Positions 11,895 through 16,649 of a stretch of 33,665 nt of DNA are shown in pieces (within the stretch, counting starts at the first letter, position 1; every line of letters starts with the position of its first letter). Below the pieces are notes generated by a model. It saw only the letters and a program-made list of their open reading frames with translations, made no database searches and had not been told where the DNA came from. The DNA lies in assembly GCA_029287375.1 (NCBI GenBank), contig JARFRG010000156.1:1-33665 (forward strand), written 5' to 3'. The stretch comes from Boseongicola sp. Its GTDB lineage: Bacteria > Pseudomonadota > Alphaproteobacteria > Rhodobacterales > Rhodobacteraceae. The position numbers and the translations under genes are program-made.

Positions 11895-12956
11895 TTGTGT
11901 GAGACCCCACAAGCGACGGACCTGTTGGCTTGGTACGACACCAACGCGCGCGACATGCCATGGCGGACCAGTCCCGCTGATCGCAAAGCAGGCGTGCGAC
12001 CCGACCCTTATCGCATTTGGATGTCGGAAATTATGCTCCAACAAACCACGGTCGCAGCCGTTCGCAGTTATTTCCTCAGGTTTACAGCGCTTTGGCCCAC
12101 CGTCAACGATCTTGCTCAGGCCGACGACGCCGCAGTTATGGGCGAGTGGGCCGGCCTCGGATACTACGCCCGCGCCCGCAACCTTTTGAAGTGCGCAAGA
12201 ACAATCGCGCAGGACCACGATGGCGTATTCCCTGACACTCACGCCGAACTGCTTAAGCTACCCGGAATTGGCCCCTACACCGCTTCTGCCATCGCCTCTA
12301 TTGCCTATGACCACCCCGAAACCGTGGTAGACGGCAACGTCGAACGCGTCATGAGCCGCCTTTTCGCTGTTCAAACGCCACTCCCGGCCGCCAAGCCTGA
12401 ACTGACCGCACTTGCCGCCGATCTGACACCTCAACACCGCCCCGGAGACTATGCCCAAGCCGTCATGGATCTCGGTGCCACGATCTGCACGCCCCGAAAT
12501 CCTGCCTGTGGTATCTGCCCGTGGATCAGCGCCTGCAAGGCCCGCGCCGAAGGGATCGCGTCAGACCTCCCCCGCAAATCGCCAAAGAAAGCAAAACCAA
12601 TCCGCACAGGCATTGCCTATATTGCACGGCGCGAAGACGGCGCATGGCTACTGGAAACGCGACCCGACAAAGGCCTGCTTGGTGGCATGCTAGGTTGGCC
12701 CGGCACCGAATGGTCGGAACACGCCGTCGACGAAACACCCCCCATTGATGGCAACTGGCGCAACCCGGGCGCAGAAGTCCGCCACACCTTTACCCATTTC
12801 CATCTTATACTCTCGGTGCGCGTGGCGACGCTCCCGACAGACACGACCATATCTCATGGCCGCTTCGTCCCACACGCAGACTTTCGGCCCTCGGACCTGC
12901 CGACAGTGATGCGCAAAGCATTTGACCTTGCGTCCCCCGTTCTCGCATCGGATTGA
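11895..12956 (+). CDS. mutY: A/G-specific adenine glycosylase
   Basis: MutY removes adenine mispaired with 8-oxoguanine. The 353-residue protein has the catalytic Glu in SEIMLQQTTV (E45), the helix-hairpin-helix LPGIGPYTA (122-130), the catalytic Asp in VVDGNVERV (D146), and the iron-sulfur loop with Cys 198, 205, 208 and 214 in C-x6-C-x2-C-x5-C spacing. The C-terminal NUDIX-like domain that reads 8-oxoG is present, with HTFTHFHL near residue 297. The start is TTG at 11895: an in-frame TAA lies two codons upstream and no ATG or GTG occurs before the conserved helix, while AGGGA lies about 10 nt upstream. Confidence 0.95.
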   Translation: MCETPQATDLLAWYDTNARDMPWRTSPADRKAGVRPDPYRIWMSEIMLQQTTVAAVRSYFLRFTALWPTVNDLAQADDAAVMGEWAGLGYYARARNLLKCARTIAQDHDGVFPDTHAELLKLPGIGPYTASAIASIAYDHPETVVDGNVERVMSRLFAVQTPLPAAKPELTALAADLTPQHRPGDYAQAVMDLGATICTPRNPACGICPWISACKARAEGIASDLPRKSPKKAKPIRTGIAYIARREDGAWLLETRPDKGLLGGMLGWPGTEWSEHAVDETPPIDGNWRNPGAEVRHTFTHFHLILSVRVATLPTDTTISHGRFVPHADFRPSDLPTVMRKAFDLASPVLASD

Positions 12957-13007
12957 GGACATCGCAGGTGCCTGTATAGTCCACACGTCCCCAATGTGAT
13001 CCGAGTC

Positions 13008-14140
13008 ATGGCCGAAACCACCTACGCAAATCACATCCGACCAGCCCTCCCATTCTGGGTGTCTCTGACGCTTGTCCCAGTCGCTTGGATCGGCGCAATT
13101 TATGGCGGATGGACGTTGGCGCTTTTGCCCATATACGCATGGGGCGCGTTCTCGGTTCTCGATAAAGTCATCGGAATCGATCCGCGAAACCCGGATATCG
13201 AAACCCCCGAGACTGACATACGCTGGCACCAATTGATCACTACGATCTGGCCTTTCGTTCAATTCGCCACGACCTTTGGCCTTCTTGCCTATGCCACCAG
13301 CGCCGATCACCTATCCTCCACGGAACGGGTCGCTCTGTTCTTTGGCGTCGGCCTGATGAACGGCACCATCGGCCTCGTCTATGCCCACGAACTGATCCAT
13401 CGGTCGTCCCGCTTAGGTCGTTTCCTCGGAGACATGCAGCTTGCGATGGTCCTGTACGGCCACTACCGCTCCGAACACCTTCTCGTTCACCACAGATACG
13501 TCGCAACACCTCGCGATCCTGTGTCGGCACGGTTCCGTGAACACTTCTGGAAGTTCTATCCACGCGTGCTTGTCCAGAGCCTGCTGTCGTCTTTCAACGC
13601 GGAAAAAGCCATACTCGCCCGGCGCGAAAGGCCGGTATGGCACTGTAGCAATCCATTCTGGCGCTACGTCAGCGGTGCGGTCGCGTTCCTTTGCCTTGCC
13701 TACGCAATCGGCGGCCAAAGTGGCGTCATTCTATTCATGATCTCCGCCGGCTTCGCGATTTTCCAGCTCGAGTTGGTGAACTACATCGAACACTATGGCC
13801 TGACACGTAGACATCTTGGCGATGGGCGCTACGAGTCGCAAAAACCGCATCACAGCTGGAATTCGGCCCATGCCGCAACGTCGGCCCTACTGATCAACGT
13901 CACGCGACATTCCGATCACCACACCAGCCCGGCTCGGCCCTATGCCTTGCTGCAAACCCCACCCGAAAGCGACGCCCCGCACCTGCCTCGCGGGTACGCC
14001 GTGATGACGACAATGGCGCTGATCCCGCCGCTCTGGATGCGCACCATGAACCCGCGCGGCGCGCATGGCGCCGTCAGTTCTACCCCGACATCACCGATTG
14101 GAGCGCCTACGACCAAGCGAAAAACCCGCCCCCGTCGTGA
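13008..14140 (+). CDS. alkB: Alkane 1-monooxygenase, frameshifted near its C-terminus
   Basis: AlkB is a membrane di-iron enzyme that hydroxylates the end carbon of alkanes. The histidine motifs are all present: HELIHR near residue 129, EHLLVHHRYVATPRDP near 159, NYIEHYGLTRR near 261, and RHSDHH near 304. Several hydrophobic helices flank them. Up to MNPR (14046-14057) the frame is 0; from about 14060 the typical family ending RRQFYPDITDWSAYDQAKNP reads in another frame and stops at 14138-14140. One base is missing at about 14058-14059 (the expected codon is G?G). Restored, the protein is 377 residues. Without repair the open frame runs to 14507, antisense to the next gene, as in the ORF track. 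Either a real C-terminal mutation or a sequence error; the catalytic core is intact. Confidence 0.85.
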
Positions 14141-14150
14141 TCCAAAACCT

Positions 14151-16649
14151 CTAACCGTCCTTGCGGATCGTTTCGTTTTTGGGATCATACGGGCTGTCTT
14201 CGGTCACGACCGCATTCCAAAGTCGGTTTTGCATTTTCACCTGAAGCTTGGTCCCCGGCGCCGCCTTGTCGACTGGCACATACCCCATGCCGATAGATTT
14301 GCCGAACGCCACCGAATAGCCGCCCGACGTCAAGCGCCCGACGCGCGTCTCTCCATCATAAAGCGCCTCACGCCCCCAGGGATCCGCATCATCAGGCCCG
14401 TCAATCAAAAGCGTCACGCACATCGACCGAACGCCGGTCTCGACCATCCGGTCCTTACCGAAATAATCCTTCTCCAGATCAACAAACCGACTAAGCCCCG
14501 CCTCTAATGGTGTTGCATCCCGACCAAGCTCGGTCCCGAACGCGCGATAGGATTTCTCCTGTCGCAGCCAGTTCTGCGCACGCGCCCCAACCAGCTTCAG
14601 ACCGTGCGTCTCGCCCGCTGCCATCAATTGGTCGAACAGGTAATTCTGCATCTCCATCGGATGATGCAACTCCCAGCCCAACTCGCCCGTATAGGCCACG
14701 CGGATCGCATTCGTCGGACACATCCCAAGCTCGATCCGCCGCGCGCTCAGCCACGGGAACCGCTTGTTCGACAGGGCCGTTTCCGGGTCCGCATCAACAA
14801 TCAGGCCCTTCAGCACATTGCGTGACTTTGGCCCCGCAATTGCGAAAACACCGTGTTGTCCCGTGCAGTCATCCAGCCACATCGGACCAAAGCGCCCAAC
14901 ATTCTCGTTGATCGCCTGCGCAAGATAGTCGCTGTCATAGGCCTGCCACGCACCGGCGCTCACCAGGTAATATGTATCCTCAGACAGCCGCACGATCGTA
15001 TATTCCGTGCGCGTCGTTCCATGCGATGTCAGCGCATAGGTCAGATTGATCCGGCCAACCTTAGGCAATTTGTTGCAGGTGAACCAATCCAGAAACGCCG
15101 TCGCGCCCGGCCCGCGTAACTTGTGCTTTGTGAACGCCGTGGCGTCGACCATTCCGACACCTGACCGGACCGCCGTGGCTTCCTCGACGGCGTATTGCCA
15201 CCAACCACCGCGCCGGAATGACCGTGCATCATGATCAAAACTATCAGACGCATCCAATGGGCCAAAATAGTTCGGCCGCTCCCAGCCATTCACCTGACCA
15301 AATTGCGCACCACGCGCTTTCATCCGATCATAGGACGGAGCCGTCTTCAGCGGTCGGCAAGCCGCACGCTCCTCGTCCGGGTGATGCACCACATAGACAT
15401 GCGCGTAACATTCCTCGTTCTTGCGTGCCGCATATTCGGTCGTCATCCAATTGCCGTACCGCTTGGGATCAAGGCTCGCCATGTCGATTTCGGCTTCGCC
15501 CTCGACCATCATCTGCGCAAGATAATACCCCGTACCGCCCGCAGCCGTGATCCCAAAACTAAAGCCCTCAGCCAGCCACATATTGCGCCGCCCGGGCGCC
15601 GGGCCAACAAGAGGGTTACCATCCGGTGTGTAACAAATCGGACCGTTAAAATCGTCCTTCAGCCCGCAGTCTTCACAGGACGGGATACGATGGATCATTG
15701 CAGTGTATTGCTCTTCGATCCGCTCCAGATCCAACTGGAATAAATCCGCCCGGAAACTATCCGGCACACCGTGTTCAAACCGCGCAGGCGCCCCGTTCTC
15801 ATAAACACCCAGAATCCAGCCCCCGCGTTCTTCACGGACATAAGACTGCGCATCCGCGTCCCGGATCACAGGATGCTCGGGGTTGGTCTTGCGCCACTCC
15901 ACCAAAGCCGGATCCTGATCCATCACGATGAACTGGTGTTCAACAGGAATTGCCGGGATCTTGATGCCCAGCAGTCCGGCGGTTCGCTGCGCATGGTTGC
16001 CCGTCGCCGTCACGACGTGTTCGGCATGAATGACGACCTGCTCATCCGTTGCCACCAGATTGCCGCCCTTTTCGGCCATCTTCATGCAGGTCACATCCCA
16101 ATGATCACCCGTCCAGTGATACCCGTCGACCTGCCATTTTCGCTCAATCAGCACACCCCGCTGTCGCGCCCCCTTGGCCATCGCCATGGTGACGTCGGCC
16201 GGATTGATATACCCGTCTGTCGGATGATAAATCGCACCCTCAAGGTCTTCCGTGCGGATCAACGGCCAACGCTCTTTGATGGCGGTGGGGGACATCCACT
16301 CATACGGTACGTCGCAGGTTTCCGCCGTGGCGGCATAGAGCATATACTCGTCCATGCGGTCTTTCGTCTGCGCCATCCGCAAGTTACCTACGACTGAAAA
16401 CCCCGCGTTCAATCCCGTCTCGGCCTCCAACTGCTTGTAGAAATCAACCGAGTATTTGTGGATATGTGTGGTCGCATAGGACATATTAAACAGCGGCAAC
16501 AATCCTGCGGCATGCCAGGTCGATCCCGACGTCAACTCGTCGCGCTCCAGCAACATCACATCGTCCCAACCCGCTTTCGCAAGGTGATAGGCAACCGACG
16601 TCCCGACAGCACCGCCACCAACAACAAGCGCTTTGACATGGGTCTTCAT
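14151..16649 (-). CDS. FAD-dependent dehydrogenase with GcvT domain (dimethylglycine/sarcosine dehydrogenase-like)
   Basis: An 832-residue two-part enzyme. Residues ~5-370 form the DAO-type FAD domain with VVGGGAVGTSVAYHLAKAG at 9-27; STWHAAGLL follows, and H46 matches the histidine that carries covalent FAD in dimethylglycine dehydrogenase. After a central linker domain (~375-430) come a GcvT tetrahydrofolate-binding domain (~460-710; GELGWELHHP near 655) and a GcvT C-terminal barrel (to ~830). Such enzymes oxidatively demethylate dimethylglycine, sarcosine or related methylated amines and pass the carbon to folate. Start: ATG at 16649 behind GGAGGATTCGTCTT. It stands alone and is convergent with alkB (10 bp apart). 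Its exact methylated substrate cannot be read from the sequence. Confidence 0.9.
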   Translation of the reverse strand: MKTHVKALVVGGGAVGTSVAYHLAKAGWDDVMLLERDELTSGSTWHAAGLLPLFNMSYATTHIHKYSVDFYKQLEAETGLNAGFSVVGNLRMAQTKDRMDEYMLYAATAETCDVPYEWMSPTAIKERWPLIRTEDLEGAIYHPTDGYINPADVTMAMAKGARQRGVLIERKWQVDGYHWTGDHWDVTCMKMAEKGGNLVATDEQVVIHAEHVVTATGNHAQRTAGLLGIKIPAIPVEHQFIVMDQDPALVEWRKTNPEHPVIRDADAQSYVREERGGWILGVYENGAPARFEHGVPDSFRADLFQLDLERIEEQYTAMIHRIPSCEDCGLKDDFNGPICYTPDGNPLVGPAPGRRNMWLAEGFSFGITAAGGTGYYLAQMMVEGEAEIDMASLDPKRYGNWMTTEYAARKNEECYAHVYVVHHPDEERAACRPLKTAPSYDRMKARGAQFGQVNGWERPNYFGPLDASDSFDHDARSFRRGGWWQYAVEEATAVRSGVGMVDATAFTKHKLRGPGATAFLDWFTCNKLPKVGRINLTYALTSHGTTRTEYTIVRLSEDTYYLVSAGAWQAYDSDYLAQAINENVGRFGPMWLDDCTGQHGVFAIAGPKSRNVLKGLIVDADPETALSNKRFPWLSARRIELGMCPTNAIRVAYTGELGWELHHPMEMQNYLFDQLMAAGETHGLKLVGARAQNWLRQEKSYRAFGTELGRDATPLEAGLSRFVDLEKDYFGKDRMVETGVRSMCVTLLIDGPDDADPWGREALYDGETRVGRLTSGGYSVAFGKSIGMGYVPVDKAAPGTKLQVKMQNRLWNAVVTEDSPYDPKNETIRKDG

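Follow-up and report, generated by a model that had tools for sequence, protein, structure and literature searches.

A one-base frameshift in the 3'-terminal region of an AlkB-like gene from a draft Boseongicola genome, within a subfamily mostly lacking rubredoxin

Rubredoxin is the usual electron donor of AlkB, the membrane diiron alkane monooxygenase. The described enzyme with which we compared the present gene is FtAlkB of Fontimonas thermophila (PDB 8f6t, 8sbb), which is ordered up to residue 387 and in which Arg169 is among the positively charged residues of the face where rubredoxin docks (PMC10113152); a long C-terminal stretch that includes short helices contributes to enclosing its diiron site (PMC10110569). 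On the physiological side, strain O3.65 has alkB without a rubredoxin reductase and failed to grow on alkanes, while a relative of it, also without the reductase, does grow on them (PMC5064897). Closer in sequence is an AlkB-like subfamily from the same bacterial family as the present gene, exemplified by locus L002 of the MAG Boseongicola sp. Site_C11, whose members from the same genus or the nearest named record show 70-76% identity to it. L002 is an intact gene of 376 residues, and the gene described here is broken at the motif MNPR.

We analyzed a stretch of 33,665 nucleotides of Boseongicola sp. (GCA_029287375.1, contig JARFRG010000156.1, positions 1 to 33,665), henceforth the window. The features relevant to the argument are the following:

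11895 to 12956, + strand: intact upstream gene, which from its sequence we take to be MutY-like; a same-genus copy is 79% identical over its full length
13008 to 14057, + strand: in-frame body of the AlkB-like membrane diiron oxygenase, 350 codons from the ATG at 13008, with an alternative GTG start at 12996
14052 to 14064, + strand: G+C-only run of 13 bases with the frame break
14058 to 14507, + strand: spurious unshifted continuation, antisense to the neighboring gene from 14151
14060 to 14140, + strand: displaced family tail in the -1 frame, 26 codons and TGA
14151 to 16649, - strand: intact convergent gene for an FAD oxidoreductase with an aminomethyltransferase fold (Pfam DAO, FAO_M, GCV_T, GCV_T_C)

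The open reading frame at 12996-14507 codes for 503 amino acids from the GTG, or 499 from the ATG at 13008. Its AlkB-like portion, which carries all four histidine motifs, ends with RTMNPR at 14057; this body matches the Pfam FA_desaturase domain (7.9e-28) and, in a PDB sequence search, FtAlkB 8f6t (3.3e-61). The frame at 14060-14140 reads RAWRRQFYPDITDWSAYDQAKNPPPS followed by a stop, the tail characteristic of the family beginning with RAWRRQFYPDITDWSAYDQ; the peptide QFYPDITDWSAYDQAK is part of this displaced tail, to which the tail of a same-genus copy could be matched by tblastn (E ~1e-7). The tail's stop ends at 14140 and the stop codon of the convergent gene starts at 14151 (+ strand numbering), leaving a gap of 10 bp. 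At the junction, relatives read continuously as MNPx-V-x-x-W-R with a full valine codon (GTG, GTC or GTT), in contrast to the window, which has just GG at 14058-14059. As this site lies inside the 13-base G+C-only run, the missing base cannot be placed at a single position. No other damage was found in the gene. Hence, the AlkB-like gene is almost certainly short of one base relative to its family. The sequence-only reading had proposed such a frameshift near the 3' end of alkB, with the missing base around 14058-14059, the histidine motifs in one frame up to MNPR and the tail in another frame stopping 10 bp before the neighbor; translation and the comparison with relatives bear this out, and every coordinate it gave is correct.

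The name alkB that it used stands in part. The nine histidine ligands and the one glutamate of the diiron site, compared as named in PMC10113152, fall in four motifs and occupy invariant columns of an 18-sequence alignment; these histidines, the adjacent glutamate (NYIEHYG), the length and the fold are shared with FtAlkB. The fold was assessed on a structure model of the intact relative L002: 8f6t and 8sbb were its sole matches with E <= 0.001, with a TM-score of 0.76-0.79 by query length and an identity of 32-34%. Unlike FtAlkB, which has EHNRGHH as its second motif, the window's gene has EHLLVHH; further, its C-terminus is frameshifted and no rubredoxin was found in its genome. Identity between the subfamily and canonical AlkB amounts to about 31-38%. 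Thus, motifs and fold are of the AlkB type, but with this level of identity, and with genomes that mostly lack rubredoxin, 'AlkB-like' is the better name, and the sequence comparisons place the window's gene in a subfamily distinct from canonical AlkB.

We then compared the break site across relatives, sampled at one genome per species. Twenty loci from relatives, which represent 19 distinct tails since L002 does not differ from L035 there, show a single frame from ATG AAC via the valine codon to TGG; a further locus, L051, was left out of this reading, as the script found no MNP motif in it. What is the displaced tail in the window is thus the same tail in frame in its relatives, and the two same-genus copies, 75-76% identical to the window's gene, show no break and face the same convergent neighbor. 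A sample of 200 genomes of the family gave approximately 150 listed orthologue rows, in which the match extends to query residue 366-376, except for the row of the window's own genome, where it stops at residue 350. A C-terminal extension shared by relatives would have spoken against a mutation; none of them has it, and all readable tails are in frame. Judged from these sequences, the break is particular to the window's genome among the genomes searched, its frame being disrupted relative to intact orthologues in the manner of a frameshift mutant or pseudogene.

Given this break, one might ask whether the gene is nevertheless functional in one of its two readable forms. The unshifted frame overlaps the convergent gene at 14151-14507, i.e., over 119 codons including the stop, in keeping with the roughly 120 codons of antisense read-through over the dehydrogenase gene noted earlier. 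A case for the 499-residue form as a genuine adaptive extension of the C-terminus, overprinting the dehydrogenase gene, could be made from the openness of the frame and from a tblastn match, at 40% identity, to an antisense stretch in the same-genus genome G004. However, the convergent gene is itself 92% identical to its G004 copy over its whole length, so that what tblastn matched is a conserved gene's antisense shadow, and in G004 this stretch is separate from alkB, whose frame ends after the usual tail. Moreover, the antisense frame stays open to 14507 or further in about 30% of synonymous re-samplings of the convergent gene, for which reason we regard the read-through as unremarkable and its length as no more than chance gives; in the structure model of the frameshifted protein, confidence is below 50 from residue 354 onward and pLDDT is mostly <50 across the extension. 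We accordingly consider an adaptive extension very improbable, and the overlap is best read as a chance antisense shadow. Even less credible is programmed ribosomal or transcriptional slippage that restores the frame and leaves the gene functional as it stands. A -1 slip after MNPR would indeed yield a product of exactly the family length (MNPR-R-R-AWRRQ...), but the region 14046-14064 has neither an X_XXY_YYZ heptamer nor a homopolymer, Rfam yielded no RNA element at 13900-14600, and the gene lies in one frame in every relative read, which leaves no conserved slippage system.

This leaves the question of whether the base is missing from the organism or from the draft. We lean slightly toward a real mutation or strain variant, as far as a draft assembly allows: the lineage, or the strain dominating the assembled sample, would be missing a base, lost in the recent past, toward the 3' end of its AlkB-like gene. 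Against the two same-genus copies, the tail has a pN/pS of 0.25-0.30 and the body of 0.22-0.23, the former being a rough value from 24-25 codons with near-saturated synonymous sites; at this resolution it suggests little decay since the loss of the frame. Such normal coding constraint on a displaced tail implies that the loss is either recent or not real, and it is also what one would see under the alternative of an undamaged gene in the organism, from whose sequence the draft dropped one base in the G+C-only run, an explanation to which we give somewhat less than even credence. The assembly comprises 294 contigs at 87% completeness, constraint is normal on both sides of the break, the gene is undamaged beyond the single base, as an error would also leave it, and a run of G and C alone is a place where an error could plausibly arise. 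Homopolymers, however, are a common site of indel errors, and none was found at 14046-14064. A screen for frameshifts covering ~605 kb of the 2.9 Mb genome against ~1.3 Mb of G004, with 162 gene matches at >=60% identity, is also pertinent: apart from alkB, a clear frameshift in the window's genome was encountered in a transposase copy alone. The idea of a genome-wide excess of frameshifts as a sign of poor assembly was thus rejected, since the lack of a second clear case outside the transposase among approximately 160 genes indicates that the assembly is not ridden with indels; yet one frameshift in ~160 kb of compared coding sequence also fits a low residual error rate. The sequence-only reading had left recent loss, error and polymorphism open, and as far as the data reach this position is supported.

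The screen returned four candidates among the 162 matches, namely alkB, the transposase with a stop as well, a frame difference assigned by eye to the G004 side, and an over-extended reference ORF. Run in reverse, the screen produced eight split matches; two of them involve the contigs of alkB and of the transposase, and another is the same G004-side gene. The transposase copy (L083 590-1290, contig C40) is interrupted by an internal stop and shifts frame close to its end, and in L123 10486-11487, compared with ~114937-116025 of G004 contig C35, the frames differ after about residue 228, seemingly by a shift in G004. Within the window's genome (87% complete) we found no second AlkB copy that might compensate. 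Nor were close plasmid-borne copies found; two distant matches of this kind lie mostly in the dehydrogenase-antisense region, outside the AlkB body.

Were the frameshifted gene translated, the protein would lose its last 26-30 conserved residues and gain about 150 unrelated ones. The C-terminal cytoplasmic segment is present in the DNA, out of frame after MNPR, and the lost residues would correspond to part of the segment that in FtAlkB contributes to enclosing the diiron site. In the L002 model, residues 340-358 form a helix with pLDDT of about 81-88, and the position of the frameshift lies within it. Taking this helix together with the role of the FtAlkB C-terminus, we posit that loss of the tail would probably render the enzyme unstable or inactive, if the break is real.

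The frameshift itself is an ordinary event, and matters mainly for annotation, where a pipeline would give an inflated protein or a pseudogene; the rubredoxin-less subfamily is the better lead. The second motif is EHLLVHH in 17 of the 21 subfamily members read (window 13008-14057; L002, L003, L034-L052), as against EHNKGHH in 30 of the 32 AlkB sequences read from outside the subfamily, and 18 of the 21 have leucine at the position of FtAlkB Arg169. At a cut-off of our choice (matches stronger than 1e-100), the subfamily occurs in about 171 of the 200 sampled genomes of the family, and rubredoxin (PF00301) was detected in 25, so that the oxygenase seemingly occurs without its usual donor in at least approximately 148. 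PF00301 had no match in the window's genome (87% complete), which thus departs from the canonical AlkBGT arrangement with a genome-encoded rubredoxin donor, or in four genomes of the same genus, of which just one is near complete (99%). From these distributions we tentatively propose, with rather less than even confidence, that this subfamily, near-universal in its family, may work without rubredoxin, using another donor and perhaps another substrate, and that the frameshift would then be a lineage's loss of that function and not of alkane use. The window's gene offers no basis for inferring alkane degradation, and a widespread AlkB-like gene mostly unaccompanied by rubredoxin implies that 'alkane 1-monooxygenase' annotations in the family may mislead. 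The case of O3.65 agrees with this, and its growing reductase-less relative tempers it (PMC5064897).
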